A stretch of DNA of 25,507 nt from a virus. The position numbers were made by a program, and so were the translations under genes. Where the stretch lies: the IMG/VR virus record IMGVR_UViG_3300044639_003410, positions 1 to 25,507 of that record; one strand, written 5' to 3'. Position 1 is the stretch's first letter. Each line of letters begins with the position of its first letter. The notes beneath the pieces are model-generated. The model searched no databases and was not told the DNA's origin. It saw nothing but the letters and a program-made list of their open reading frames with translations. This document shows positions 4,050 to 23,947 of this stretch, one piece after another.

Positions 4050-4068
4050 ATTTTTATTTTATTTTTAG

Positions 4069-4141
4069 TGGAGATACCCGGTTACGATCCGGGGTCTATG
4101 GATTGCAAATCCATTGTAATAGCCGATTATACGATATCCCC
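4069..4141 (-). tRNA. tRNA-Ala(TGC)
   Basis: Cloverleaf with acceptor GGGGATA/TATCTCC and A73, anticodon stem ATGGA/TCCAT and loop TTTGCAA giving anticodon TGC. A G3:U70 pair, the alanine identity element, supports Ala over a shifted Cys reading. The T loop is ATCGTAA rather than the usual TTCGAAT. No 3' CCA is encoded. Confidence 0.85.
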
Positions 4142-4203
4142 AAATAGAAGGGAGACTAACCTTCTGTTGTTCCTTTGTACGTAGGAACTTTTAAGTCTTT
4201 TTG
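4142..4203 (-). other. tRNA spacer with two tandem hairpins
   Basis: The 62-nt spacer between tRNA-Ala and tRNA-Gly contains two consecutive stem-loops, AGAAGG/CCTTCT (4147-4166) and GTTCCT/AGGAAC (4169-4188), each with a 6-bp stem and 8-nt loop. Other tRNA spacers in this block are only 6-10 nt, so this one may be a processing signal or a small structured RNA. Confidence 0.4.
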
Positions 4204-4278
4204 TGCGAGAGACGGGGCTTGAACCCGCGACCTTCTGGTTGGAAGCCAGACGCTCTAAGCCAACTGAGCTACTCTCGC
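4204..4278 (-). tRNA. tRNA-Gly(TCC)
   Basis: Acceptor GCGAGAG/CTCTCGC, D arm GCTC/GAGC, anticodon stem TCTGG/CCAGA with loop CTTCCAA (anticodon TCC), T arm CGGGG around TTCAAGC. G1:C72 and C2:G71 fit glycine identity. Discriminator A, no encoded CCA. Confidence 0.93.
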
Positions 4279-4288
4279 GTTTATTTTG

Positions 4289-4362
4289 TACCGATAGCGG
4301 GATTTGAACCCACAACCTTGACGATATAAGCGTCCTGCTCTCACCAATTGAGCTATATCGGC
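4289..4362 (-). tRNA. tRNA-Ile(TAT)
   Basis: Acceptor GCCGATA/TATCGGT with a G1:U72 wobble and A73, D arm GCTC/GAGC, loop CTTATAT giving anticodon TAT, which reads AUA codons directly. The anticodon stem GGACG/CGTCA has one mismatch at its outer end. Most bacteria read AUA with a lysidine-modified CAU tRNA instead, so this choice avoids dependence on TilS. Confidence 0.8.
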
Positions 4363-4368
4363 ATTTTG

Positions 4369-4442
4369 TAGTCCGTACGGGATTCGAACCCGTGATCTTC
4401 TCCGTGAAAGGGAGACGTGTTAAACCGCTTCACTAACGGACC
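4369..4442 (-). tRNA. tRNA-Glu(TTC)
   Basis: Acceptor GGTCCGT/ACGGACT (G1:U72) with A73, anticodon stem TCTCC/GGAGA and loop CTTTCAC giving anticodon TTC, T arm ACGGG/CCCGT with TTCGAAT loop. Confidence 0.92.
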
Positions 4443-4449
4443 ATTTTTG

Positions 4450-4533
4450 TGGAAGTGGCGGGAATCGAACCCGCTCAGGCAACTGTCACTGGTTTTACAG
4501 ACCAGCCCGACTCTCCAACTTCGGCGCACTTAC
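4450..4533 (-). tRNA. tRNA-Tyr(GTA)
   Basis: 84-nt class II tRNA. Anticodon stem CTGGT/ACCAG with loop CTGTAAA (anticodon GTA) and a long variable arm. The acceptor GTAAGTG/CACTTCC has a mismatch at position 2:71. T arm GCGGG/CCCGC with TTCGATT loop. It is the first tRNA after the hairpin at 4544-4570. Confidence 0.9.
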
Positions 4534-4543
4534 ATAAACGAAA

Positions 4544-4570
4544 AAACCCAGTCTTTTTGAGACTGGGTTT
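4544..4570 (-). terminator. Terminator-like hairpin between mini-ORF and tRNA block
   Basis: Stem AAACCCAGTC/GACTGGGTTT with loop TTTTTGA, followed on the minus strand by TTTCGTTTA. The same position and near-identical flanks occur at 7109-7135, and a related hairpin is at 5961-5990. It separates the mini-ORF at 4594-4680 from the tRNA-Tyr block. Confidence 0.8.
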
Positions 4571-4593
4571 ATCATATTTTGTAATTATCACAA

Positions 4594-4680
4594 CTACTCA
4601 ACAGACAAAGTCAGTCCACTTACAAAGCTCCCCGCCTCATATGCATAACCTATCGCTTCTATGTTGATAATTGTTCTCAT
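4594..4680 (-). CDS. Leader-like mini-ORF upstream of tRNA block (28 aa)
   Basis: ATG at 4680 followed by 28 codons (MRTIINIEAIGYAYEAGSFV...). The first 21 nt are almost identical to the mini-ORF at 6016-6090, and the position relative to promoter, hairpin and tRNAs repeats in three modules. A -7 element (TATATTTG, 4712-4719) lies about 32 nt upstream. It may be a real microprotein, a leader peptide, or simply the transcribed leader of the tRNA operon; the conserved start favours translation. Confidence 0.5.
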   Translation of the reverse strand: MRTIINIEAIGYAYEAGSFVSGLTLSVE

Positions 4681-4711
4681 TTTATTTAGTTTTTTATCGT
4701 TGTTTCTTTTA

Positions 4712-4719
4712 CAAATATA
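4712..4719 (-). promoter_or_regulatory. -7 promoter element (TATATTTG) of the first tRNA module
   Basis: Minus-strand TATATTTG matches the Bacteroidota -7 consensus TAnnTTTG and precedes the mini-ORF, hairpin and tRNA-Tyr to tRNA-Ala block. An additional CTTTTATATATATAG run lies about 25 nt further upstream. Confidence 0.65.
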
Positions 4720-4808
4720 AGTATTTTTCTTTTACTTGTTCTATATATATAAAAGTTTTTTTCTTTCTTTTTGTATTTTATTGAAAATAAGTTAAAAAGT
4801 TTGAAAAT

Positions 4809-5123
4809 TTATCGCAATTCATAATACCAACCACTCCACCAACAGTACCAGGCATAGGAGTTCTGCCATTGTGTTACCCAACTCCATCCATTCCATACAT
4901 AAATATATCCTGAGTAGGATTGTCTTTCCCATTGTAATATCCTGTATCTTCTTTCTATTCCCAATGGTGTCATAACGGAATAATAAGGATCATATTCTTT
5001 TATTATCTGACCTTGATATTGGTAATATTGTCCGGCTTGCCAACCACTCTGTGCATTTGAAACTGGTGAAAATAAGGACAGTGTTATAACTGCTGCTAAT
5101 ATGTATAATATTCTTTTAATCAT
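4809..5123 (-). CDS. Secreted Trp/Tyr-rich small protein
   Basis: 104 residues from the ATG at 5123, which overlaps the stop of the upstream lipoprotein gene as TAATG; this start also places MIKRILYILAAVITLSLF at the N-terminus as a clean signal peptide ending near SNAQ. The mature part is extraordinarily aromatic, with motifs such as GWQAGQYYQYQGQ, YIYVWNGWSWVTQW and YAWYCWWSGWYYELR. No family is recognised. Coupling to a lipoprotein suggests the two act together in the periplasm or at the cell surface, for example in altering susceptibility to other phages, but that is inference. Confidence 0.8.
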   Translation of the reverse strand: MIKRILYILAAVITLSLFSPVSNAQSGWQAGQYYQYQGQIIKEYDPYYSVMTPLGIERRYRILQWERQSYSGYIYVWNGWSWVTQWQNSYAWYCWWSGWYYELR

Positions 5124-5515
5124 TAGTAAACTCTTATTTTTATACATTCTTGAAACTGACTAGGTTCTGCGGTTCCGTTTACTACGTTTCCTAACGCATC
5201 TCTAACTTCCCAATCGACTTTACTACCTGATGTGAATTGGTATGTTGCACATCCTGCGGCACTACAATTTCCTGGTCCATATGGGTAGAAACCTGTGATT
5301 GTTCCTTGTGCAGAATTATTAACGTAAAGTGTAAGTGGTGGATAGTTTGCAGGTCCAGAGACATAGAATATAGCTTTCGAATATTCACAGAGAGAATTAT
5401 CTTCTCTGGTCATTATGTCAGAACTATAATTGAGAGCTTTTGGATCTTCACATCTCCTACATGATGTAAATAACATCGAAACTGAGACAAATGCAAGTAA
5501 TAATATTTTACTCAT
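5123..5515 (-). CDS. Outer-surface lipoprotein
   Basis: 130 residues. The N-terminus MSKILLLAFVSVSMLFTSC is a lipoprotein signal with lipobox LFTS-C19. The mature start RRCEDPKALNYSSD...NSLCEY resembles the Cys-x-DPxAxNY...C segments found in many secreted Bacteroidota proteins. The rest is strand-rich, with a Gly/Pro/Cys-containing middle (YPYGPGNCSAAGCATYQF). Coupled to the aromatic secreted protein downstream. It follows the tRNA-Ser block on the same strand. A superinfection or surface-modification role is plausible but unproven. Confidence 0.85.
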   Translation of the reverse strand: MSKILLLAFVSVSMLFTSCRRCEDPKALNYSSDIMTREDNSLCEYSKAIFYVSGPANYPPLTLYVNNSAQGTITGFYPYGPGNCSAAGCATYQFTSGSKVDWEVRDALGNVVNGTAEPSQFQECIKIRVY

Positions 5516-5563
5516 ATATTTAATTATTTTTTATTTTGTATTTATTTACAAAACATTTGTTTG

Positions 5564-5647
5564 CGGAAAGCTACGGAATCGAACCGTATACCTTGCAGTA
5601 CGTCGCGCTTTCCAGGCGGACCTCCTCACCATCAGAGATAGCTTTCC
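5564..5647 (-). tRNA. tRNA-Ser(GGA)
   Basis: 84-nt class II tRNA with long variable arm, acceptor GGAAAGC/GCTTTCC, discriminator G followed by CA, loop CTGGAAA giving anticodon GGA. The anticodon stem contains a mismatch. T arm TACGG/CCGTA with TTCGATT loop. Confidence 0.88.
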
Positions 5648-5652
5648 AGTTG

Positions 5653-5736
5653 CGGAAAAAGTAGGTGTCGATCCCAATACCCGGAGGTACCCACTGTTTT
5701 CAAGACAGGGCTGCAGGCCGCTGCAGTTCATTTTCC
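5653..5736 (-). tRNA. tRNA-Ser(TGA)
   Basis: 84-nt class II tRNA, acceptor GGAAAAT/TTTTTCC with a mismatch at 7:66, discriminator G, anticodon stem CTGT/ACAG with loop CTTGAAA giving anticodon TGA, long variable arm. The T stem is imperfect (loop ATCGACA), so function is slightly less certain than for its neighbours. Confidence 0.8.
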
Positions 5737-5741
5737 ATTTG

Positions 5742-5825
5742 CGGAGAGCAGAGTACTCGAAACCCATTCCTTTCAGAACCACTCGCTTAGCAGGCGGTGT
5801 CAGGGACCTCCCTGATTTACTATCC
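5742..5825 (-). tRNA. tRNA-Ser(GCT)
   Basis: 84-nt class II tRNA, acceptor GGATAGT/GCTCTCC with one mismatch, discriminator G, loop CTGCTAA giving anticodon GCT, long variable arm, T loop TTCGAGT. It completes a three-gene set reading all six serine codons. Confidence 0.82.
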
Positions 5826-5832
5826 AATTTTG

Positions 5833-5870
5833 CGGAGAAACTGAGCACCGAAGTCCACACTACTTTCTCC
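5833..5870 (-). pseudogene. tRNA-Ser-derived minihelix (38 nt)
   Basis: Perfect 7-bp acceptor-like stem GGAGAAA/TTTCTCC followed by discriminator G and CA, as in the three neighbouring tRNA-Ser genes, but enclosing only 23 nt (GTAGTGTGGACTTCGGTGCTCAG) with a weak internal stem-loop. D arm, anticodon and T arm are missing. Either a deletion remnant or a deliberately kept acceptor minihelix. Confidence 0.6.
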
Positions 5871-5875
5871 TTTTG

Positions 5876-5950
5876 TAGTCCCAGAGGGATTCAAACCCTC
5901 ACATCTCTCGGTTCGTAGCCGAGTGTTTTGTTCAGTTAAACTATGGAACT
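5876..5950 (-). tRNA. tRNA-Arg(ACG)
   Basis: Acceptor AGTTCCA/TGGGACT (one wobble) with A73, anticodon stem CTCGG/CCGAG and loop CTACGAA giving anticodon ACG, T arm GAGGG/CCCTC with TTTGAAT loop. It would need host TadA to make inosine 34. Confidence 0.92.
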
Positions 5951-5960
5951 ATATAACACA

Positions 5961-5990
5961 AAAAACCCTCAGATTTTCATCCGAGGGTTT
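5961..5990 (-). terminator. Terminator-like hairpin of the second tRNA module
   Basis: On the minus strand AAACCCTCGGATGAAAATCT then GAGGGTTTTTTG: stem AAACCCTC/GAGGGTTT, extended inward by GAT/ATC across a one-base bulge, with a T-run. It lies between the mini-ORF at 6016-6090 and tRNA-Arg. Confidence 0.75.
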
Positions 5991-6015
5991 ACATAATATC
6001 TTTTAATATCGACAA

Positions 6016-6090
6016 TTATAAACACAATCGGATTCTATACACTCTTGACGAGCGACTTGACGAACTTGATATGTTGATAATTGTTTTCAT
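6016..6090 (-). CDS. Leader-like mini-ORF of the second tRNA module (24 aa)
   Basis: ATG at 6090 with 24 codons: MKTIINI followed by a Ser/Arg-rich stretch ending YRIRLCL. The first 21 nt (ATGAAAACAATTATCAACATA) differ by one base from the mini-ORF at 4594-4680; the rest diverges. The preceding AATATATAAGAAACA resembles the leader of the third mini-ORF. Translation is plausible from the conserved start but the divergent remainder argues for a leader role rather than a conserved protein. Confidence 0.45.
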   Translation of the reverse strand: MKTIINISSSSSRSSRVYRIRLCL

Positions 6091-6138
6091 TGTTTCTTAT
6101 ATATTATTTTTTATTCTTTGTTTTTATTATTTATTTTG

Positions 6139-6268
6139 GTAGGGAGGTGGGATTCGAACCCACGACCACGCGGTTAACAGCCGAAGTAACTCTTCTATTC
6201 GGCACTCTTGCGAGGCAAAGTTATAAATGAGTATTTGTACGTGCTCTACCAACTGAGCTACTCCCTAC
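6139..6268 (-). tRNA. Interrupted tRNA-Asn(GTT) with 56-nt insertion
   Basis: All conserved parts of a tRNA are present: acceptor TAGGGAG/CTCCCTA, T8 A9, D arm GCTC/GAGC, loop CTGTTAA (anticodon GTT), T arm GTGGG/CCCAC with TTCGAAT. A 56-nt segment (6184-6239) separates anticodon-stem residues 28 and 29; removing it restores the stem CGCGG/CCGCG perfectly. The extra 5' G and C73 form an eighth acceptor pair as in tRNA-His, odd for an Asn anticodon. The insert is too short for a group I intron and carries a GCCGAA/TTCGGC inverted repeat at its 3' border. Confidence 0.75.
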
Positions 6269-6271
6269 ATA

Positions 6272-6448
6272 TTATTTCTTTTTGGAGAAGGCTTTCTCTA
6301 GTTCGATATGTTTATCACTATTTTGCCATTTATCTCCGTTAAGTGTTTTCCAGGTACCATCATACATTCTTTTATGTACTTCATTTTTACCATTATCATT
6401 TGTGTATATGATTGAATACCTGTAATCTTCTATTTTAATAATTTCCAT
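6272..6448 (-). CDS. Small charged protein (58 aa)
   Basis: Begins MEIIKIEDYRYSIIYTNDNG and ends LEKAFSKKK. It starts one base after the stop of the Smr-like gene (TAG-A-ATG) and ends three bases before the interrupted tRNA, so it is almost certainly a coupled gene. Composition suggests a small beta-sheet protein (KNEVHKRMYDGTWKTLNGDKW). No family recognised. Confidence 0.8.
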   Translation of the reverse strand: MEIIKIEDYRYSIIYTNDNGKNEVHKRMYDGTWKTLNGDKWQNSDKHIELEKAFSKKK

Positions 6449-6449
6449 T

Positions 6450-6671
6450 CTATTTTATTCTTATATTCAGTGAACCTGGATTGAGTGGAACATCATCGAC
6501 TTTGAAGTTATAATCTTTCGATACATCCTTTACAATCTGTTTCATTCTTTCACTTATTCCGGTCACGACTTCTACTTCGAAGTGTCCACGTTGTAACATC
6601 TCCCAGAAGAACTGGTCGAGTCTTTGTTGTACATCTGCGTGTTTGATACCGTGAAGGTCTATTCTGTTCAT
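6450..6671 (-). CDS. Smr-domain protein
   Basis: 73 residues from the internal ATG at 6671, chosen because MNRIDLHG places the family motif at the N-terminus; an alternative ATG at 6686 is only 5 nt from the end of tRNA-Lys. The Smr (small MutS-related) fold is indicated by IDLHG at residues 3-7, a following helix, the EVEVVTGIS segment corresponding to the family TGxG loop (here TGIS), and the ending LNPGSLNIRIK. Smr domains cut or bind branched DNA or RNA. Here the protein lies inside a tRNA gene cluster, so an RNA role is as possible as a DNA one. The Gly of the TGxG loop is not conserved, which may affect catalysis. Confidence 0.82.
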   Translation of the reverse strand: MNRIDLHGIKHADVQQRLDQFFWEMLQRGHFEVEVVTGISERMKQIVKDVSKDYNFKVDDVPLNPGSLNIRIK

Positions 6672-6690
6672 AATTTTATATATCATTCTG

Positions 6691-6763
6691 TGACCCCACC
6701 GAGACTCGAACTCGGACTGTTACATTAAAAGTGTAAAACGCTAACCAATTACGTCATGAAGTC
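6691..6763 (-). tRNA. tRNA-Lys(TTT)
   Basis: Acceptor GACTTCA/TGGGGTC with two G:U pairs and A73, D arm ACGT/GCGT, anticodon stem TTACA/TGTAA with loop CTTTTAA giving anticodon TTT, T arm CCGAG/CTCGG. Confidence 0.9.
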
Positions 6764-6773
6764 ATATTTTTTG

Positions 6774-6842
6774 CGCGAATGGTAGGAATCGAACCCACTC
6801 CGTGGGGGTTGGAATCCCACTGGCTACCTCAGCCTCACTCGC
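6774..6842 (-). tRNA. tRNA-Gly(TCC)-like, short D loop
   Basis: 69 nt. Acceptor GCGAGTG/CATTCGC with discriminator G, compact D arm GGCT-GAGGT-AGCC, anticodon region GTGGG-ATTCCAA-CCCCC with a T:C mismatch, T arm GTGGG/CCTAC with TTCGATT. The most regular alignment gives anticodon TCC (Gly), supported by G1:C72 and C2:G71. A register shift would give CCA (Trp). The imperfect stem and shortened D loop leave function uncertain. Confidence 0.65.
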
Positions 6843-6852
6843 TTATATTTTG

Positions 6853-6928
6853 TTGCCCTGGTGGGACTCGAACCCACATTACTACCTGATTAAGAGTCAG
6901 GACCGGAACCAATTACGGATACAAGGCA
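6853..6928 (-). tRNA. tRNA-Lys(CTT)
   Basis: Acceptor TGCCTTG/CAGGGCA with A73, anticodon stem CCTGA/TCAGG and loop CTCTTAA giving anticodon CTT, T arm GTGGG/CCCAC with TTCGAGT loop. The D stem has three good pairs. Confidence 0.9.
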
Positions 6929-6935
6929 ATTTTAG

Positions 6936-7008
6936 TGGAGCCGACGGGTTACGATCCCGTTCCTCTGGATTTTCAGTCCAGCGCAATGACCACATCTGCC
7001 ACAGCTCC
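6936..7008 (-). tRNA. tRNA-Phe(GAA)
   Basis: Acceptor GGAGCTG/CGGCTCC with A73, anticodon stem CTGGA/TCCAG and loop CTGAAAA giving anticodon GAA, T arm ACGGG/CCCGT. T loop is the unusual ATCGTAA, as in tRNA-Ala(4069). Confidence 0.9.
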
Positions 7009-7019
7009 TTGTTATGTTG

Positions 7020-7092
7020 GGTGTATGAGGAATTTCGAAATCCCGACCTCTGGCTCCACAAACCAGTGCTCTGCCTCTGAGCTACACACACC
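7020..7092 (-). tRNA. tRNA-His(GTG)
   Basis: Acceptor GTGTGTG/CATACAC with an additional G-1:C73 pair, the histidine identity element, D arm GCTC/GAGC, anticodon stem CTGGT/GCCAG with loop TTGTGGA giving anticodon GTG, T loop TTCGAAA. Confidence 0.92.
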
Positions 7093-7413: not shown

Positions 7414-7875
7414 TTAGATTTTTTTAAAATACAAATCTGCCTCTGCATGTCTTCTTAATACTAAGCCTTTTAAAACTTTATTTGAAGCTTTCGTCCACTT
7501 TAAAAATTCATCTTTTATAGTTTCATCATTTGGGTTAGCATTAACCTTTTTCAATAATGTTGATGACTTTAAGTTTGCTGGACCCAAATTGTAACAAAAT
7601 GATACAAGTGCATCAAATTGATTTTGTGTTATAGAATCAGTTGTGTATGAGTCAACGTATTGTTCAAACTTTTCCAAACTTTGTTTTAACATTTCAACTG
7701 CTTTTTGTTCAGTTATTGGTTTGTCGTTTAGTGTTACCTTTTTACCATTTTTGTAAAAAGTATTGCCGTAGCCGATTGTTGGTACATTTGCGGGACATAG
7801 GTATGGTTTTAAGCTTAGTCCTTCGAATCTTTTTATCAATTCGATTCCTTTGTCGGATGTTTTAGTCGCTTTCAT
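7414..7875 (-). CDS. Endolysin, GH24 phage lysozyme
   Basis: 153 residues from the ATG at 7875, chosen because it gives the TAA-T-ATG junction used elsewhere here; a longer start at 7896 would overlap the upstream gene. It hydrolyses peptidoglycan glycan strands at lysis. The GH24 core is RFEGLSLKPYLCPANVPTIGYG: Glu18 matches the catalytic Glu of T4 lysozyme, Cys27 occupies the Asp20 position and Thr33 the Thr26 position, with the correct E-x8-C-x5-T spacing. The CPA variant is common in P21/lambdoid-type relatives. The C-terminal half has the family FDALVSFCYNLG and TLLKKVNAN motifs. No signal peptide or SAR helix is present, so a holin or export aid is required. Last gene of the kinase-receiver unit. 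Confidence 0.93.
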   Translation of the reverse strand: MKATKTSDKGIELIKRFEGLSLKPYLCPANVPTIGYGNTFYKNGKKVTLNDKPITEQKAVEMLKQSLEKFEQYVDSYTTDSITQNQFDALVSFCYNLGPANLKSSTLLKKVNANPNDETIKDEFLKWTKASNKVLKGLVLRRHAEADLYFKKI

Positions 7876-7876
7876 A

Positions 7877-8557
7877 TTAGAATTTATTTTTACCACTTGC
7901 GTATTTTACACCTACTATTGTTCCTATTATTGAGAACGCGTTTGTAATAAGTATACTAAGTGTATTAGACCATGCGGGTCCTATAATATATGTGTCTTTA
8001 CCAGTGAGTAGGGCTGTTATGTATAGTGCTGTTGTTGCGATACCTGCACCTACTATAAGCATTAGTGCTACTTTGACTATATTACTTATTAGTTCGGTTT
8101 CTTTCCTCTTTTGTAATATATTTAGATCATATTCTGCGGTTTCTTTGGCAGTTATGGCATCCTTTTTCGAAAGTTCTGCATCACTGAGAGCTTTTCTCAA
8201 CTCCTCACTTATTCTTTCGTTCTCTTCTTTCCACTCGGTGAGTTCTTTGTTTTGATCCTCTATGAGTTCTTTACTTTTTTCAGATTCTACGAATGCGTTT
8301 TTTATATCATTCATTAGATTTTCTCTCTCCTCTGCGGCAGTGGTGAGTTCTTTGTTCTGTGATTGAATCTGTTTTGTTATTTCAAGTCTTTTCTTCCTAC
8401 TGGATTTATCTTTATCTGTTGCGGTTTTTATATAGTTCACAAAATCAGGATCCTCTCCTTCGGTGTCTATGACCTTAAGTATGTTTCCTTCCAGGTGTAT
8501 ATTTTTTTCCTGAGCTAGTTTTAGAAGGTCCTTTTTTGTGTCTTTACAAAGTTTCAT
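7877..8557 (-). CDS. Coiled-coil protein with two C-terminal membrane helices (holin/spanin candidate)
   Basis: 226 residues. Residues 1-45 are a small charged domain (NIHLEGNILKVIDTEGEDPDF). About residues 50-160 form a long coiled coil with repeated NKELT motifs (QSQNKELTTAAEERE and EDQNKELTEWKEENE). Two hydrophobic helices follow at about 163-190 and 197-218 and the protein ends in a basic tail (KYASGKNKF). The ATG overlaps the receiver stop (TAATG) and its stop is one base from the lysozyme ATG. Position before an export-lacking endolysin fits a holin, an inner-membrane spanin-like part, or a signal-transducing lysis regulator. The long cytoplasmic coiled coil is unlike ordinary holins and could be the receiver's target. 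Function is inferred from position. Confidence 0.8.
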   Translation of the reverse strand: MKLCKDTKKDLLKLAQEKNIHLEGNILKVIDTEGEDPDFVNYIKTATDKDKSSRKKRLEITKQIQSQNKELTTAAEERENLMNDIKNAFVESEKSKELIEDQNKELTEWKEENERISEELRKALSDAELSKKDAITAKETAEYDLNILQKRKETELISNIVKVALMLIVGAGIATTALYITALLTGKDTYIIGPAWSNTLSILITNAFSIIGTIVGVKYASGKNKF

Positions 8558-8988
8558 TATCTATATATCTTGAAGTTTGCTGTCCTGTTAACGTAGGATG
8601 GATAGTCTTTTTTGAAGTCTTCTAATCTAGGTTCGATATCGTCGTTTTTTATTATCCAGAATTGTGCACCTGCTTGTAAAGCTTTGGCTTGTTCGGTTGC
8701 CTCATTACTTGATGATATTATACCGATAACGACGTGGTTACCGTATTCGAAGTTTATTCTTCTTATAAGTTCAATTCCATCAAATGTAGAACCGATTATA
8801 TTTAGATCCACAAAAACACATACAGGTCTTCCCGTCGGATTTTTGTGCCATTCTGAAAACTTTGTACCTGCCTCATCTGCACTATTTATACACTCTAATG
8901 TGAGTGATATATCTAAAAGGCTGCAGGCATCCTCGAAAACTAAGTGGAAAAGAGACTCATCATCCACAAGTAGTATTGAATCAATCAT
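8557..8988 (-). CDS. Stand-alone response regulator receiver
   Basis: 143 residues from the ATG at 8988 (TGA-T-ATG junction with the kinase); an alternative ATG at 8997 adds three residues. A single CheY-like receiver with all key residues: acidic pair Asp9-Asp10 in ILLVDDE, phospho-acceptor Asp61 in VFVDLN, Ser92/Ser93 in GIISSS at the switch position, and Lys114 in WIIKND. No DNA-binding or enzymatic output domain follows, only a short tail, so it must act by protein contact or in a phosphorelay. Direct coupling to the kinase upstream and to the membrane coiled-coil protein downstream makes these its likely input and output. Confidence 0.9.
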   Translation of the reverse strand: MIDSILLVDDESLFHLVFEDACSLLDISLTLECINSADEAGTKFSEWHKNPTGRPVCVFVDLNIIGSTFDGIELIRRINFEYGNHVVIGIISSSNEATEQAKALQAGAQFWIIKNDDIEPRLEDFKKDYPSYVNRTANFKIYR

Positions 8989-8989
8989 A

Positions 8990-10762
8990 TCAATCATTTG
9001 TATTGTATTTTATTTTTATTTTGGTTCCTCCTTTTTCAAGTTTTTCACATGAAACCGTGAAACCATGTTCTTTTAGTATAGCTATACATATGTTCAGGCC
9101 AAGTCCCATACCAGATTCTTTTTGTTCTACCTTTCTCGCATATGGTTTTGAATATTTATCAAACTCTTCCTGTGTGAGACCTCTACCGTTATCTTCTATT
9201 GCTATTGTGTCACCATCGGGGTATATCTTAACTACACGTGTTGGACTGTCGTTGTATTTTATACCATTTCTTATTAAGTTGTCTACTGCTGTACAGAATA
9301 GTGACTCATTAACATTTATGCTTGGTAAATCTTTTGACAATAATACAGAGTCTTTGTAAGCTGTAGATTCTAGGTAATTGTCTAATATCTTGCCTATGTT
9401 ATGTGTTTCTTTTTCGAGAACACTATCTTTTTTTACGAGGTTGGTGAATTCGTAAACACCTTTGTATATCTTTTGTGTCTGTGTTAGTCCTTCTTTAAGT
9501 AACCTTATGGGTGCTTGTAATTTGTTGTCTTTTATTAGTTCTGGTGTTAGTCTTCTTATTAGTGAGTTTATTCCTTTTGGAATATAGGTATTTATACCTG
9601 AGTGCATATCGTGTCTAAGTATCTTTGCGGCGTGTTCTAAATATGTATTCTTCTTTTCTATTTCAATCGAAGTTTCTACAATCTTAGTAACATCTTGTCT
9701 TATAGATGTGAATCCGATGTGTTCGTTGGTCTCTGGATCAAAGTTGGCTTTTATGTAGGTATCAACATAGTAATGATCACCGTCCTTTGTTTTATTTGTG
9801 ACCACTGCGTTCCATATTTGTCTTTTATCTATTGTGATTTCATACATATTTGCCCAAAAAATTTTATCATGTATACCAGAGCTAAGTATTTTATGATCTT
9901 TCCCAATCACCTCTTTTTGTGACCATCCTGATACAGCAGTGAATTTCTCGTTTACGTAAATTATTTTCCCTCTTTTATCTGTTTTGGATACGAGTGATGC
10001 AGTATCCATAAACCTTTCTATCTCCATTAGGTTTTTCTGTATGTCATTTCCGTCTGCGATTGACCAAGCGAATGAGTAGAGTGATGAAAGTACCTGTGCA
10101 AAGTTTACTTCGGTGTCTAACCACTCCCTTCTTTTATAACTCTCTATACATATCACACCAATAGTCTGTCCCCTGAAAAATATTGGAACATCTAACATAG
10201 ATTTTATATTGTTTGGTCTGAGATAACTATCAGTGAAACATTTAGTTGCGTGGTGACTATCTGCGTCATTTGCAATTATAACTGATTTGGTTTTTAGTTC
10301 TTTGAAATATGGTATACAATCATCGTACCATAAGTTTCCACCCGATGTCCATTTACCATCTTCGTACATCATATCTAGTTCGAGTGATTTATTCTGTTCG
10401 TAGTATAACCATATTCCACATCTATCTACGTCTAATACCTCGGTGACATCTTTTGTTAGTAGTGTGGCACATTGAACTAAATCACCTTCATAAAAAGCGG
10501 GATTGTGTGATTGATTTATCAGTGTAAGGTTTATTCGGTCAGTGTATTCGTTTAGACCTTCGGCCTCTTTAGCTCTTCTCAGGTGGTCTCTGACCATACG
10601 GTAGAAGAATGGTAACATAAATATAAAACAAGCGACCTCAATCAACTTTGCAATTGGTGAAGTTTCTATAATTCCGGTCAACATAAGTGTCTTAGTGGTT
10701 ATGTATGCCAATGACGATAATGTTGTTAGAATTATGTTCAGTAACGTGCTTTTACAAATCAT
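8990..10762 (-). CDS. Membrane GAF-PAS sensor histidine kinase
   Basis: 590 residues. Two membrane helices at about 8-32 and 38-57, with only a few residues between them, are followed by a cytoplasmic GAF domain (about 80-235, with YFKELKTKSVIIANDAD and PIFFRGQTIGVICIES), a PAS domain (about 248-362, with GKIIYVNEKFTAVSGW) and the kinase core. H-box LRHDMHSG carries the likely phospho-His384, the N-box DNLIRNGIKYN has Asn495 and Asn499, the G1 box is EDNGRGL (Asp524) and the G2 box is GMGLGLN (551-557). All motifs required for autophosphorylation are intact. It is the first gene of the unit ending in the endolysin. Lack of a sizeable extracellular domain implies sensing of a cytoplasmic or membrane signal. 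The start codon lies in an inverted repeat. Probably acquired from a Bacteroidota host, then streamlined. Confidence 0.93.
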   Translation of the reverse strand: MICKSTLLNIILTTLSSLAYITTKTLMLTGIIETSPIAKLIEVACFIFMLPFFYRMVRDHLRRAKEAEGLNEYTDRINLTLINQSHNPAFYEGDLVQCATLLTKDVTEVLDVDRCGIWLYYEQNKSLELDMMYEDGKWTSGGNLWYDDCIPYFKELKTKSVIIANDADSHHATKCFTDSYLRPNNIKSMLDVPIFFRGQTIGVICIESYKRREWLDTEVNFAQVLSSLYSFAWSIADGNDIQKNLMEIERFMDTASLVSKTDKRGKIIYVNEKFTAVSGWSQKEVIGKDHKILSSGIHDKIFWANMYEITIDKRQIWNAVVTNKTKDGDHYYVDTYIKANFDPETNEHIGFTSIRQDVTKIVETSIEIEKKNTYLEHAAKILRHDMHSGINTYIPKGINSLIRRLTPELIKDNKLQAPIRLLKEGLTQTQKIYKGVYEFTNLVKKDSVLEKETHNIGKILDNYLESTAYKDSVLLSKDLPSINVNESLFCTAVDNLIRNGIKYNDSPTRVVKIYPDGDTIAIEDNGRGLTQEEFDKYSKPYARKVEQKESGMGLGLNICIAILKEHGFTVSCEKLEKGGTKIKIKYNTND

Positions 10763-10787: not shown

Positions 10788-10817
10788 AAAAAACCGGTCA
10801 TAATTGACCGGTTTTTT
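10788..10817. terminator. Terminator downstream of the HNH/kinase fusion gene
   Basis: Stem AAAAAACCGGTCA/TGACCGGTTTTTT with TAAT loop. T-runs on both strands; on the minus strand it ends the transcript from the gene at 10830-11672 just before the sensor kinase unit. Confidence 0.9.
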
Positions 10818-10841
10818 AGAAGTTGAATTTTAGAAGTTGAA
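10814..10841 (-). repeat. Perfect 14-bp tandem duplication across a stop codon
   Basis: Two adjacent copies of TTTTAGAAGTTGAA (plus strand) at 10814-10827 and 10828-10841. The right-hand copy encodes the last residues and stop of the fusion protein; the other copy follows in the untranslated tail next to the terminator. Confidence 0.85.
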
Positions 10842-11672
10842 TATAAGTTTTCCTAGCTTTATGGCTTTAGATTCTAAGTCACTTAGTGTTGTTTTATTGG
10901 TTACTATTAAGTCGGCTTCAAATTTTGTTATTGTAAAAGAGTTTCTCTCTTTTTTCTCTCTACCTTCTGCATCCACGTATATAATTACGTCAAAAAGATC
11001 TTTGGATGCTAGAAACTCATCATGATCTCTCATACCTACATAACAATCAACTATTGATGTTATCTCTTTTGCCAATCTAGCTCTATCTGGATCGTTATAA
11101 TCTCTGATCATTTCATACCATTTTTCACGGTGATTTACTCTATCTTCAAAACATTGTTCTAATGTTTTGTATCCGTGTTCCTCTTTTAGTTTGTCAAATA
11201 TAAATATCTCATTCGCTGCATGTGAGGACGACTTAAAGGTCATTCCAAAATGTTTAGTGAATAGTTCAGCTAATGTGTCTTTACCGTGTCTTGCATTTCC
11301 AATAATTAGTATCTTCGGCATCTTCTTTTTTCGGTTACTAGTCAATTTAGCTAATTTGGCATGTAGACAATCAATCTCTTCAAAACTTAGGTTAGCTTTT
11401 TTACCGTTGATGTCTATCGTACATGCAACTACATTTCCCTCAATGTATCCTTTATCAGAGTCTATCCTGTCGAATGATCTAGCATTTACTCCGTCTTCTT
11501 GAAAAGTAGAACCTGTATAGTAACATGTTTTATATTCGAGAAGGTTCCTTACATACTCAAAACTTAGGTTGAAGTCTATCTTCCTGTCCTGTGAACTTTG
11601 ATATATGTTGATTAATTTTTTAGCAACCTCTACGTCGGTAACTAAGTTCTTTGTGTTATTTTTCTTACTCAT
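10830..11672 (-). CDS. HNH-like domain fused to a dNMP-kinase-like P-loop domain
   Basis: 280 residues with two parts. Residues 30-100 resemble a compact HNH-type nuclease seen in phages: YKTCYYTGSTF, then SFDRIDSDKGYIEGNVVACT, then a following Asn and Lys pair; only one Cys of the usual zinc site remains. Residues 118-280 form a P-loop kinase with Walker A GNARHGKDT (125-133), a lid-like RDYNDPDRARLAKE segment and a core ending DVIIYVDAEGREKKERNS...ADLIVTNKTTLSDLE, as in phage deoxynucleoside monophosphate kinases. An internal Met118 (MPKILIIGN) marks the junction and could be a second start. Such kinases convert dNMPs from host DNA breakdown to dNDPs. Why a nuclease-like module is attached is unknown. 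Confidence 0.8.
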   Translation of the reverse strand: MSKKNNTKNLVTDVEVAKKLINIYQSSQDRKIDFNLSFEYVRNLLEYKTCYYTGSTFQEDGVNARSFDRIDSDKGYIEGNVVACTIDINGKKANLSFEEIDCLHAKLAKLTSNRKKKMPKILIIGNARHGKDTLAELFTKHFGMTFKSSSHAANEIFIFDKLKEEHGYKTLEQCFEDRVNHREKWYEMIRDYNDPDRARLAKEITSIVDCYVGMRDHDEFLASKDLFDVIIYVDAEGREKKERNSFTITKFEADLIVTNKTTLSDLESKAIKLGKLIFNF

Positions 11673-18611: not shown

Positions 18612-18645
18612 AATGAAAATGCCACATTAGAGTGGCATTTTTTTT
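18612..18645. terminator. Terminator after the NadV-like gene
   Basis: Stem AAAATGCCAC/GTGGCATTTT (core AATGCCAC/GTGGCATT) separated by a short loop, with a run of nine T on the plus strand and A/T-rich tail on the minus strand. It closes the Prs-to-NadV unit. Confidence 0.85.
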
Positions 18646-20177
18646 TATGCTAAAACTGTTTCGGTTCCAATATTGGCAAGTGTCTCAATCTTACCTCTAA
18701 TCTCAGATAATGTAATCTGATTATAGAATTTTCCATCTTCGTAAATTACCTGTAAGATTCCTTCTTTCTCTTGGTCGAGTGTGCATTGAACACCTACTGA
18801 GTGGTCTCCATCTTCTGTTTCGTGAACCGAGATAAGTCCTTTCAATGACTTCTTAGTTCCGTCATCTGAGATTGGATCTTTGAATATGTCGTAGTTCACG
18901 CCGTTTGCTTGAAACCAAGCACCTTTAGCAGCGAAACCAAAAGTATCACGTGTGTTGTATTGGTAAGTATAGCTTCCCACTCCCAGAACAATATTTGTAG
19001 TGGCAAATCCTTTAGCAGCCAATCTATCGTAGATCTCTACTTGACGGTCAGTCGTGATAGAGTCGCCGTAGATAGCTCCAATATGTGGATCTAAGACTTT
19101 GTACCCTTGTGCGTTGATAGTTCCTCCAAAGATGTCCCATAAGCACTCAATCAATCCTTTCGTGTAGAACTCTGGATAGAAAGCTCTGTTCTCATTATCG
19201 GTCAACTCAGTTCTTCCGTGTCCACAGATAATCTCTACTGGGTCTCCAGAGTCGGGACGAATAACTAACTTACCATCACGAGATAAGATTTGGTCTTTCA
19301 GGTCGAAACAGTATCCACCTTCACTTGGTTTCGCAACTTTTGTGATGTCGAAAGTATCCATTACTACTGATAAGATACCTTTGTCGAACTTGTTCATCCA
19401 ATCAATCAACATTTGTTTTTCACCAACCGTGAAGATTTTTGTTGTTGATACAGAGTGTTCAGATGCGTTTACAGAGTTGATAACAACTTCGTTCTCTGGT
19501 TCTTCATAGAAGTAACGAGCTGCTGGGATAACTACAAGTGTATCAGAACCTCTGAATGATGTAGCGTGTCCTAAGCCAGATGATACCATAGTCCAAGGAT
19601 CTAATCCTCTCGCGGAGAAATCGTGTGCTAAGAAAGGAATCAAGAAAGCGTTCGCTGGGTCTGTTTTCAAGATGTATTTCACTAAGTTTCTTTTGTATTG
19701 AAGTGCAATAGAAGCAGACGTTGCTGGTTTCCAAGCTAAAGAAGAAACAATAGTTTCTAAGAATAAAGTAAGCCATGCAAATCCTTTTACTGTGTTGATG
19801 AATGTCATGTGAGGAACATTCGTGCGAGTTTCGATACCTTCTGGTAATGACTTAACTCTTACTGGTAAGTATCCTAATTTGTGAAGAGTAATGAAATGTT
19901 CTCCGTTGTACTCCATACCTAAGTATAAAGCCATATCTTTTACAAACTTCTCTGCGACATCAACTGGTTGAGCGAAGAAGTTTTCAGTGAACTCGTCGTG
20001 AATCCAACGCCAAGTCATTTGCTGGCCGAAAGAAACAATCTTGTTGATTCCTTTAGGTGCGTGTTTTGTCGAACGTGGAATCCAAGTTCCGTATAAGAAG
20101 TCGGTTCCTTCTGCAAGCATTGCTGGGTGTCCGATTTTGTACCCGTCTGAATAGAATAATGTTGTTGGTCTAAACAT
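18645..20177 (-). CDS. nadV: Nicotinamide phosphoribosyltransferase-like enzyme (NadV; possibly Namat)
   Basis: 510 residues, the usual length of NAMPT/NadV. Conserved landmarks: SDGYKIGHPAM near the N-terminus, AHDFSARG at 184-191, FRGSDT at 208-213, SEHSV with His241, RPDSGDP at 307-313, GDSI at 371-374 and the glycine-rich LGVGSYTYQ at 398-406. NAMPT joins nicotinamide and PRPP to make NMN. In phages, close relatives act either with an adenylyltransferase (NMN to NAD+) or, as Namat, join nicotinamide to ADPR-pyrophosphate to give NAD+ directly. The Prs-like gene at the head of this unit and the absence of an adenylyltransferase in the window favour the second scheme, but sequence motifs seen by eye cannot separate them. 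Confidence 0.95.
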   Translation of the reverse strand: MFRPTTLFYSDGYKIGHPAMLAEGTDFLYGTWIPRSTKHAPKGINKIVSFGQQMTWRWIHDEFTENFFAQPVDVAEKFVKDMALYLGMEYNGEHFITLHKLGYLPVRVKSLPEGIETRTNVPHMTFINTVKGFAWLTLFLETIVSSLAWKPATSASIALQYKRNLVKYILKTDPANAFLIPFLAHDFSARGLDPWTMVSSGLGHATSFRGSDTLVVIPAARYFYEEPENEVVINSVNASEHSVSTTKIFTVGEKQMLIDWMNKFDKGILSVVMDTFDITKVAKPSEGGYCFDLKDQILSRDGKLVIRPDSGDPVEIICGHGRTELTDNENRAFYPEFYTKGLIECLWDIFGGTINAQGYKVLDPHIGAIYGDSITTDRQVEIYDRLAAKGFATTNIVLGVGSYTYQYNTRDTFGFAAKGAWFQANGVNYDIFKDPISDDGTKKSLKGLISVHETEDGDHSVGVQCTLDQEKEGILQVIYEDGKFYNQITLSEIRGKIETLANIGTETVLA

Positions 20178-21264: not shown

Positions 21265-21680
21265 ATTTCGTATATTCCGGTTTCGTCCGATTCGTCTAAA
21301 AAACGACCTAACTTTATCATTGTTTTACCGTGAAGGTAATGTGTAGATTCTTTATCTACGTTATCTAATTCGCCAATTGTGTACACTGTTCTGACTGTAT
21401 CGGGTATTCCTTGTCGAGCACACATATCTGAGTATTGTTTGTACATATCCTCTGCAATCTCTTTCACCTTATCAGGTTTAGTCGTACATCCTGGATGAAC
21501 ATCTTCATCCATCGATATAACAATATCTTCTTTATAAATTGAGTTTATATCATCTACAATCCTTTTGACATTTTCCTGGAAAGACTTCGGAGTTTCTGAA
21601 AGAAAATGGCAGTACTTTATCCAATCTCCTGGCATTCCATCTTTTGGACATATTTTAGTGTATATAACTCCGTATTCCAT
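21261..21680 (-). CDS. Unknown protein (139 aa) coupled to the Prs-like gene
   Basis: Begins MEYGVIYTKICPKDGMPGDW, one base overlapping the Prs stop (TAATG), and ends in an ATGA overlap with the membrane protein. It has three Cys in the first two thirds and an acidic SMDEDVHPGC segment. No family recognised. Its placement directly after the Prs-like gene makes it a candidate accessory factor in NAD+ metabolism, by context only. Confidence 0.82.
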   Translation of the reverse strand: MEYGVIYTKICPKDGMPGDWIKYCHFLSETPKSFQENVKRIVDDINSIYKEDIVISMDEDVHPGCTTKPDKVKEIAEDMYKQYSDMCARQGIPDTVRTVYTIGELDNVDKESTHYLHGKTMIKLGRFLDESDETGIYEI

Positions 21681-22489
21681 TATACCGTCTGTGGTTTATT
21701 AAGAATTGTTCCTTCTAAAAGATAAACAAGATCATAAGTTGTCAAATTGTTGAGCTCGTAATATCCGAACTTTGAGTTTGTCGTGAATATTTTGTCATAG
21801 TATTTCTCCAACTCAGGGTTAGGATTCTGAACAGTCATATGTGATACTGCTAAGTAAAGTTTACCAGCATTTCTTTCTTTCAGAAGTTTAGCCAAACCAA
21901 CAAAAGTTCCACCGAAAACACAGAGATCATCAATAACAAGAATATCTTTACCCTCAAAGTCCTCGTTTTCAATTACTTGTGTTAATTTGTGTGTTACTAA
22001 GTCTCTCGACTTACTCGCACTATATACTTCACCTTCGAACTTGATCTTGTCTGCTAGTTTGTTGATCCATTTGAACGACCCTGCGTCTGTTGACAGGATA
22101 ACTGGCTCTTGTTCCAGGTCTTTTAGAACCTGTGATATGAATGCACTATTATCCACAACTCTGGCGTTTCTCACTCCCATACCGGTAGAGTCTGAATGTG
22201 GGTGAAATATTGTTACTTTACTGAAATTACAAGAGTTTATAAAGTCAGCAACCAATTTCAATTCAAAAGATTCATTGTCTGCGAACCTACGGTCGTGTTG
22301 TTGCTGGAACATACACGGGATGAAAAGTTCTACGTCCGTGACTCCGTTGAAGTCACAAACATCTTTTAATGATTTTATGAAGAATAAATCCTCGTATGAA
22401 TTTATCCTCTCTACAATCTTTGGATTGGTGAAGTCTTGTACCTCTGCATAAATCCCACCATCGGGATATTTTTTTCTAGTATATTTCAT
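21680..22489 (-). CDS. prs: Ribose-phosphate pyrophosphokinase-like enzyme (Prs; possibly Adps)
   Basis: 269 residues from the ATG at 22489; further in-frame extension upstream would overlap the divergent gene. It is shorter than cellular Prs (about 315). Alignable motifs: FIPCMFQQQHDRRFADNESF (cellular PxxRQDKK region), HPHS (the LHAS site), STDAGSFKW (SPDAGG), KSRD at 160-163 (catalytic loop) and the PRPP/ribose-phosphate loop VIDDLCVFGGTF at 185-196. Prs transfers pyrophosphate from ATP to ribose-5-phosphate. In phage NAD+ reconstitution pathway 1, the Prs-like Adps instead acts on ADP-ribose. Compactness and the accompanying NadV-like gene are consistent with that, though unproven. First gene of a six-gene unit. 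Confidence 0.88.
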   Translation of the reverse strand: MKYTRKKYPDGGIYAEVQDFTNPKIVERINSYEDLFFIKSLKDVCDFNGVTDVELFIPCMFQQQHDRRFADNESFELKLVADFINSCNFSKVTIFHPHSDSTGMGVRNARVVDNSAFISQVLKDLEQEPVILSTDAGSFKWINKLADKIKFEGEVYSASKSRDLVTHKLTQVIENEDFEGKDILVIDDLCVFGGTFVGLAKLLKERNAGKLYLAVSHMTVQNPNPELEKYYDKIFTTNSKFGYYELNNLTTYDLVYLLEGTILNKPQTV

Positions 22490-22505
22490 ACTACTAATAT
22501 ACGGA

Positions 22506-22517
22506 TTTTTATATATA
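22506..22517 (+). promoter_or_regulatory. TTTTTATATATA element between divergent genes
   Basis: TTTTTATATATA lies 4 nt before the ATG of the tagged gene at 22522, in the 32-nt gap shared with the Prs-like gene. The same 12-mer precedes the kinase unit on the minus strand (10767-10778). Confidence 0.35.
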
Positions 22518-22521
22518 GTTG

Positions 22522-23028
22522 ATGCGATATTTAAAGATTTTCGAGAGTTTTTCTGAGAACAAAGATGTTCAGGATCTATGGAAGATAAACCCTGAAGATA
22601 ACATACACCTGGTGATATCTTGTTTAGAAGAGACCGGTCTTTACGGAGTCGCCGACTACGAGATATTCTACGCAGTGTTAGAGACTGTCGAGATGAGACG
22701 TGCACCAGGTTTGCCTTCATACGGAAGTAAACATTTTCGTGCATGTTTCGTGCAGGATACCGAAAAGTTACGTACTGATGATATCGCTGTGTCAGAGTAT
22801 ACGATGTACATCAAAAAACTTAGGAAGAAAGGTCCGAGTGAATACTTTATGCCGATTATTGAGGTTTCACTAACCGGTCTCGACGACGAACATGAGGAGC
22901 AGGTCGCCGAATTCGGTCGCATCTATGGTGAAAGATTCAGAGAGTTATTCGGTGATGTCTATAATGTAGAAGAGAGTGATTGGGACACAACAGACGGTTA
23001 TAGTATCAGACTACATATGGTTATCTAA
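22522..23028 (+). CDS. Tagged unknown protein (168 aa)
   Basis: Start at the ATG at 22522, giving MRYLKIFESFSENKD, the shared plus-strand tag; the frame is also open from a TTG three bases upstream. The body is mixed alpha/beta with acidic stretches (EVSLTGLDDEHEEQVAEFGR) and ends GYSIRLHMVI. No family recognised. The 3' end overlaps the convergent terminase-like gene by eight bases, and no terminator is visible. Confidence 0.82.
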   Translation: MRYLKIFESFSENKDVQDLWKINPEDNIHLVISCLEETGLYGVADYEIFYAVLETVEMRRAPGLPSYGSKHFRACFVQDTEKLRTDDIAVSEYTMYIKKLRKKGPSEYFMPIIEVSLTGLDDEHEEQVAEFGRIYGERFRELFGDVYNVEESDWDTTDGYSIRLHMVI

Positions 23029-23947
23029 GTATCGTCTCCAACATCTTATCTCGCCACTCCTGTGTTCCAGGAACTAATAACTCGTATTCCATAAGCCACT
23101 GTTCTGTGGTTAGTTGACTCCTTATCTCTTGTTCATGTTCAACCCAGTATGTTTTCCAGTCCCAGGTGCCAATCGCGGTCGATCCAGGATTTTTATCATT
23201 GCGTTTTCTCGCCCAGTCAAATACCGTTTCAAAATTACCTTCTCTGTCTGGAAGACCGGCAAGTACAATCTTCGTATTAGTCCTTGCGATAAGACCAGGA
23301 AACGTACCAGCTATTAAATCTAATCCATAAAATTGAATTCCGTCCACTATTAGAAGGTCCGGACTCACCAAAAGTTTAGACATATCGAAAACTCGAATTG
23401 TACACCCGTTTTCAAAACTTATAACTGCCGTAGGTTCTGGATCGTTATTTTCATTTACTTCACGAATACCAGATTGTCTATGATAAGGACAATTCTGAAT
23501 TGCCTTCATTATTTTATGTGTCGCTCCACGTACGTCCTTTGTTACAAACATTATACTTTTATCCCAGCTGTTCGCTAAATAATGTGTAACATAAGTCGCC
23601 AACACCGAAGTGGTACCTATCTGTCTGGCACAACTCAGAACATTCATCTTATTTGACTGTATCTGTCGGAGCATCTCAAATTGGTATTCACGGCTTTGTG
23701 GTAGAAGACCATTCATCATTTCAGGGAGTGTTTTGTTCCTTACTATATCTTGTAGTTCGTCATTGGTGTGGTTCAATACAATTGAAGAACTTCTTAGTCT
23801 ATAAGATTCACCAAAAATCTCAACATTGGTGTATGGTTCAACGGTGATATCTTCACCATCGTTGAGTAAATTAAGTAGCTTCATATCTCGTTCGACTGCT
23901 TTCGGGTCTTCGAGCCAGTTTCTTACAAGTTTTGTTGTCCAGTTCAT
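23021..23947 (-). CDS. Terminase-large-like ATPase with degenerate motifs
   Basis: 308 residues. Residues 85-150 match the ATPase domain of T4 gp17-type terminase: adenine-motif region REYQFEMLRQIQSNKMNVLS, P-loop region ARQIGTTS (107-114) followed by VLATYVTHYL and IMFVTKDVRGATHKIMKAI. In gp17 the P-loop reads SRQLGKTT; here the essential Lys is replaced by Thr. The Walker B position DLLIVDG (197-203) lacks the catalytic acidic partner. The C-terminal nuclease domain of terminase is absent: the protein ends after the ATPase fold. It therefore looks like a non-hydrolysing paralogue, perhaps binding terminase, portal or DNA. The start overlaps the preceding gene's stop (ATGA). Confidence 0.82.
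   Translation of the reverse strand: MNWTTKLVRNWLEDPKAVERDMKLLNLLNDGEDITVEPYTNVEIFGESYRLRSSSIVLNHTNDELQDIVRNKTLPEMMNGLLPQSREYQFEMLRQIQSNKMNVLSCARQIGTTSVLATYVTHYLANSWDKSIMFVTKDVRGATHKIMKAIQNCPYHRQSGIREVNENNDPEPTAVISFENGCTIRVFDMSKLLVSPDLLIVDGIQFYGLDLIAGTFPGLIARTNTKIVLAGLPDREGNFETVFDWARKRNDKNPGSTAIGTWDWKTYWVEHEQEIRSQLTTEQWLMEYELLVPGTQEWRDKMLETILR

Follow-up and report, generated by a model that had tools for sequence, protein, structure and literature searches.

A kinase–receiver–coiled-coil cassette fixed in large uncultured phages, often beside lysis genes and possibly gating lysis

What would a phage do with a membrane histidine kinase and a receiver of its own, packed together with a membrane protein and an endolysin? 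The question is raised by a 25.5-kb virus record (IMG/VR IMGVR_UViG_3300044639_003410, positions 1 to 25,507; hereafter the window, meaning this whole stretch), in which intact, tightly packed genes, all on the minus strand, encode a histidine kinase (HK), a stand-alone receiver (RR), a coiled-coil membrane protein (CC), and a GH24 lysozyme. We found that hundreds of large uncultured phages carry HK, RR, and CC as a fixed set, and we consider below what this set might contribute to lysis.

We worked from loci fetched with RR (n = 80) or with CC (n = 78) and from a dereplicated set of 94 cassettes. CC lay directly behind RR in all of the RR-fetched loci, 77 of which also had HK, and RR was present in 74 of the 78 CC-fetched loci and adjacent to CC in every one of these, the other four being cut by a contig end. 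Across the dereplicated loci, the gap between RR and CC was −4 nucleotides (nt) in 49 and −1 nt in 34 (83 together), and the two genes were apart only in L218, where short open reading frames lay between them. This adjacency shows that the four-gene set is not a product of chance and supports a sequence-only reading of the window to the extent that HK, RR, and CC make up a module conserved among relatives; the existence of the cassette itself is certain. No fusions of RR with CC, HK with RR, or HK with CC occurred among 240 loci. HK and RR were separated in places: a patatin gene intervened in the L067 group, a YceI-like gene in L081, and a presumed homing endonuclease bearing NUMOD3 in L017 and L021. 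The patatin-like phospholipase (PF01734, 5e-20; L067:5034-6026 and relatives) overlaps both of its neighbors and was seen in one phage group.

Profile scans recovered at least 556 IMG/VR contigs encoding CC and at least 559 stretches in viral contigs encoding HK, while relatives of RR at 70-98% identity were present in 105 viral contigs. When 84,980 cellular species genomes were scanned with two CC patterns, short enough that very distant cellular relatives could escape, a single locus was returned, namely HK-RR-CC on a phage-like contig within a bin, and the RR profile matched only this same contig among 199 genomes of the bin's phylum. Neither RR nor CC had a tblastn match in 50,697 catalogued phage records. 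The HK matches in these records were weak, with at most 30% identity in the core among the matches listed, and many were from Listeria phage LM or from Salmonella or Escherichia records resembling host kinases. As far as searched, the cassette is phage-specific.

The kinase of the window comprises two N-terminal hydrophobic helices, a GAF domain (7.7e-18), a PAS domain (3e-6), a HisKA-like helix, and HATPase_c (4e-14), based on Pfam and hydropathy. The histidine H384 and the N, G1, and G2 boxes (N495, D524-G528, and G553-L556) were invariant across 22 aligned sequences, and total length spanned 294 to 743 amino acids, the variation residing in the sensor parts around a constant core. Most of the HK copies tested had a short-loop N-terminal hairpin, to which the window copy adds GAF and PAS; the minimal kinases of L082 and L083 (294-296 amino acids) consist of membrane hairpin and core, nothing more, and fit the intramembrane-sensing type. 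In RR, which matched Response_reg (PF00072, 1e-7), residues D12, D13, D64, S95, S96, and K117 were invariant in 25 of 25 aligned sequences, and the nearest solved relative of the family is the bacterial response regulator 3ilh. Phospho-site and core residues being invariant while the sensors vary, the function of HK and RR is under selection.

Two further observations concern the kinases. A microbial rhodopsin gene (208 amino acids, PF01036 4e-15, with the RYTDWFLTVPLL motif and the helix-G DVIAK lysine) was located in L233:4716-6616 and L231:1-1709, where its overlap with the end of a kinase from this phage family is 4 nt; these contig pieces showed neither RR nor CC, and light may be an input. 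Additionally, a secreted coiled-coil protein is encoded between two kinases (L010:3938-4540, L013:3958-4563, L015:4156-4743, L017:1372-2007, L021:3336-3953, and L057:3979-4593), and shows weak similarity (E about 0.003) with the spanin-like gene L009:4855-5355.

In the case of CC, no curated family in Pfam or PHROG was matched. Hydropathy revealed two C-terminal hydrophobic helices, the second nearly invariant in the alignment, and AlphaFold2 predicted that a small helical domain at the N-terminus is followed by a single helix of 149 residues and a two-helix hydrophobic hairpin (mean predicted local distance difference test score, pLDDT, 87; predicted template modeling score, pTM, 0.36). Insertions and deletions in the rod were of 7, 35, or 42 residues, and 36 of 36 sequences fell into one length class modulo 7; all are multiples of seven, which is what a heptad coiled coil with a constraint on register should show. 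A fold search returned one uncultured-phage protein, 53% identical, the remaining matches being meaningless for a long helix. We found no sequence relation to the T4-type antiholins RI and RIII and no Pfam or PHROG antiholin match. Kinship with the hol28 family was rejected by profile comparison, and the PADLOC matches were set aside as resembling coiled-coil noise. CC represents a conserved family of membrane proteins to which no function has been assigned, carried by uncultured phages of an abundant group.

The sequence-only reading had recognized the four closely packed genes and called kinase and receiver intact; we confirmed this, found all four intact, and corrected two start codons (Table 1). 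RR probably begins at ATG 8988, 1 nt past the HK stop, because homologs start at the second methionine (MIDSILLV), and the lysozyme likely begins 1 nt past the CC stop rather than at GTG 7896, because its nearest homologs have 153 amino acids. A terminator-like hairpin (10817-10788) sets the kinase apart from the gene upstream, and the four genes probably form their own transcription unit.

Table 1. Positions of the cassette, its parts, and adjoining features in the window.
Feature	Position	Strand	Basis
Terminator-like hairpin	10788..10817	-	13-pair stem then T run; consensus match only
Membrane histidine kinase HK, 590 amino acids	8990..10762	-	Pfam, hydropathy, 22-sequence alignment
Codon of presumed phospho-accepting His384 (LRHDMH)	9611..9613	-	Invariant in 22 sequences
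Stand-alone receiver RR (likely start 8988, 143 amino acids)	8557..8997	-	PF00072; start from homologs
Codon of presumed phospho-acceptor Asp64 of RR	8806..8808	-	Invariant in 25 sequences
Coiled-coil membrane protein CC, 226 amino acids	7877..8557	-	Directly behind RR in nearly all relatives; AlphaFold2
Rod of CC, a predicted cytoplasmic coiled coil (approximately residues 37-155)	8093..8449	-	One long helix; indels multiples of seven
Hairpin at the CC C-terminus, predicted to lie in the membrane (approximately residues 157-218)	7904..8089	-	Hydropathy and alignment
GH24 lysozyme/endolysin, 153 amino acids from ATG 7875 (open reading frame opens at GTG 7896)	7414..7875	-	PF00959, phrog_7, homolog starts

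How firmly is this cassette tied to lysis? The lysozyme of the window matched PF00959 (1e-42; 145.7 bits against a cut-off of 22.3) and the endolysin family phrog_7 (8e-58), and the triad E-x8-C/D-x5-T could be read from its sequence as E-GLSLKPYL-C-PANVP-T. It was said earlier to lack an export signal, and indeed has none. The idea that relatives would share the four-gene order was not supported as it stood: exact HK-RR-CC-GH24 occurred only in the window phage and a 97%-identical sister (L001), the wider set adding at most one downstream GH24, and GH24 was rejected as a fixed fourth member, being missing in 19 of 27 records. The lysozyme is the least fixed member of the set; elsewhere the endolysin is of GH19, M15, or amidase type and in some loci is positioned upstream or on the opposite strand.

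Using clustering together with Pfam and PHROG, we identified among the neighboring genes a GH19 endolysin with a peptidoglycan-binding domain, GH24, Peptidase_M15_3, Amidase_2 with a peptidoglycan-binding domain, and a phrog_3000-like protein. The latter has an H..G...S.GC motif and, in addition, a match to one portion of an endolysin PHROG, on which two grounds it is read as a putative cell-wall enzyme; its predicted structure (pLDDT 40) was unusable. An endolysin (GH19, GH24, M15, or amidase) was no more than 6.5 kb away in 59 of the 94 dereplicated cassettes, and in up to 40 of them a lytic or small membrane gene began within 130 nt after CC (GH19 in 17, hol28 in nine, phrog_3000-like in six, hol9 in four, holS in two, and M15 and GH24 in one each). 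Moreover, among 22 enzyme-bearing records of at least 50 kb, 16 had the cassette within 6 kb of GH19, GH24, or M15, where 3.2 would be expected under uniform placement (p about 3e-10, an optimistic value in that related phages were counted as independent). Stand-alone Amidase_2 genes (0/10) and full-length large-terminase matches (0/7) served as proximity controls, and the former were accordingly rejected as lysis partners. On the tree of RR and CC, the parsimony minimum was at least four changes of enzyme type and at least 13 of arrangement; proximity was therefore kept or regained across replacements. In L078, a small membrane gene, GH24, M15, HK, RR, and CC stand in one run.

Besides the relatedness that flatters this p value, several observations weigh against a role in lysis. 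About a third of the cassettes had no recognized endolysin nearby, partly through contig ends; the nearest enzymes were 18-26 kb off in L058-L063, L050, L054, L021, L022, and L080; no lysis enzyme was seen in L082 and L083; GH19 was frequently upstream in divergent orientation; and the small genes that appear holin-like had no curated holin match (0.08 at best, against a holin PHROG). Proximity might also arise with no regulation involved if late membrane genes cluster. Overall, a link between cassette and lysis is likely, but it is optional rather than universal. What stood of the proposed coupling is the strong enrichment beside genes for peptidoglycan degradation, which belong to four or more unrelated families; what did not is a fixed GH24, or an endolysin that is always close.

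We propose, with slightly better than even confidence, that HK-RR-CC is a phospho-switch that senses envelope or cell state and through which RR, by acting on CC, gates lysis at its membrane step; what we infer here comprises phosphotransfer, the binding of RR to CC, the nature of the signal, and control over lysis. The phage would thereby own a phospho-signaling cassette with a protein-protein rather than a transcriptional output. HK would sit in the host inner membrane by means of its two-helix hairpin, reading envelope or cell state with this hairpin and with exchangeable GAF, PAS, or periplasmic domains, and would phosphorylate RR on Asp64. RR would then bind the cytoplasmic N-terminal domain or the coiled coil of CC and flip CC between states. 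The choice of CC as the partner of RR follows from their pairing, which is almost never interrupted even where HK and RR are split. As a rod on a conserved membrane hairpin, CC would gate the membrane step as an antiholin-like regulator or co-holin, which may lead to timely release of the endolysin, a protein that lacks a signal and is encoded close by.

The same neighborhoods might instead reflect some other control of the infected-cell envelope (superinfection exclusion, membrane-stress tolerance, or lipid remodeling), with lysis genes adjoining since late envelope genes cluster. The YceI-like and patatin-like genes inside or beside the cassette would suit such a role, although they fit envelope sensing as well, and so would the third of loci with no endolysin nearby and those with enzymes at the long distances given above. 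However, the proximity of GH19, GH24, and M15 is five-fold over the uniform expectation while that of Amidase_2 and terminase is nil, and the neighborhood persists as the enzyme family switches, so that we regard this explanation as unlikely.

Could CC itself be the holin, its hairpin oligomerizing into a hole that RR, acting on the coiled coil, blocks or triggers? This was the view of the sequence-only reading, which saw the membrane protein as a holin-type partner or gate. CC has two hydrophobic helices, with the second under strong conservation, and in both the window and L001 it directly precedes a signal-less endolysin with no other small membrane gene adjoining; GH19 follows closely in the 17 loci counted above. 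Holins of class II are small proteins that permeabilize lethally and have two membrane helices, with both ends in the cytoplasm. But the 226 amino acids and long coiled coil of CC are unlike known holins, and no holin family is matched. Moreover, in L002, L004, L006, L078, L079, and L080, the endolysin is accompanied by separate small membrane or hairpin genes, either next to it or intervening between it and CC, and their size, helices, and position make them candidate holins. Because several relatives hold such a gene, CC is more likely a regulator; a simple holin seems rather improbable, and it is the gate that we retain.

Finally, it is very improbable that HK and RR tap host two-component networks, reprogramming regulation in the host by cross-talk or by draining phosphate, with CC only tethering RR to the membrane: a receiver that has no output domain could conceivably serve as a phosphate sink, and 3ilh, the closest solved structure, is bacterial, but HK and RR are fixed together, their phage copies resemble one another far more closely than they do any cellular protein that we found, and a sink needs neither its own kinase nor a conserved CC hairpin.

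The proposed lysis switch has partial parallels in known systems. As in bacterial two-component systems with single-domain receivers, a membrane kinase with HATPase_c and a conserved histidine is combined with a receiver that has the acidic pair, aspartate, serine, and lysine and no DNA-binding output; unlike these, the cassette is so far phage-only and its fixed partner is a dedicated CC, in place of a flagellar motor or a more extended phosphorelay. The pair of hydrophobic helices at the HK N-terminus, joined by a short loop, recalls the intramembrane-sensing kinases SaeS, GraS, and the Bce type (PMC4388633, PMC10581149, PMC10314905), and the smallest phage copies have no other sensor, whereas GAF and/or PAS are added in most copies, a large domain presumed to be periplasmic is present in some, and no transporter partner was seen. 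In T4 lysis inhibition (PMC6832632, PMC11413866, PMC8385771), the antiholins RI and RIII act on holin T, so that lysis time is likewise adjusted to an outside signal via a protein whose target is the lysis machinery in the membrane; there, however, a periplasmic antiholin binds the holin directly, while the cassette, which has no detected sequence relation to it, would relay via kinase and receiver. A Yersinia entomophaga lysis cassette under a PhoB-like regulator (PMC10101115) similarly ties a signaling-family regulator to phage-type lysis genes, but that regulator is bacterium-borne and of the DNA-binding kind, whereas RR lacks any DNA-binding domain and the phage itself carries the entire relay. 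The nearest known behavior is the lysis inhibition of T-even phages and ICP1, the main cases in which environmental control of phage lysis has been described (PMC6832632, PMC7182436). In a survey of jumbo phages (PMC7824862), a divergent receiver domain was tied to NAD processing and never to histidine kinases, and it differs from RR. In the open-access library that we searched, no paper contained our search phrases for histidine kinases or two-component systems encoded by phages.

Several other features of the window were noted. Upstream of the kinase, a possible fusion (10830-11672) joins an HNH/Srd-like N-terminus to a C-terminus matching deoxynucleoside monophosphate kinase families. Ten tRNA genes on the minus strand (4068-7091) are interspersed with genes for small secreted proteins and a Smr-domain gene. 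A NAPRTase/NAMPT-family enzyme (18645-20177; PF04095, 3e-28) and a PRPP-synthetase-like protein (21680-22744; PF00156, 4e-10) constitute, judging from these family matches, a putative phage NAD-salvage pair, which we take to recall counter-defense by NAD reconstitution. A terminase-large-like open reading frame (23021-23947) encodes only 308 amino acids, apparently part of the usual protein, and may be split or interrupted. The host is probably a member of the Bacteroidota, given the style of the signal peptides and the nearest solved receiver, 3ilh.

On a broader scale, we offer tentatively, and as somewhat less than probable, that a widespread group of large phages times lysis by a complete membrane phospho-signaling chain of its own, in which interchangeable sensors (hairpin, GAF/PAS, periplasmic domains, and possibly rhodopsin in two contigs) would feed a nearly invariant receiver; this receiver would physically switch a coiled-coil membrane gate, which is coupled to unrelated endolysins from one phage to another. 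If true, phage lysis would be under post-translational control by signal transduction, and lytic phages would run dedicated signal transduction inside their host, so that what they sense would become directly testable.

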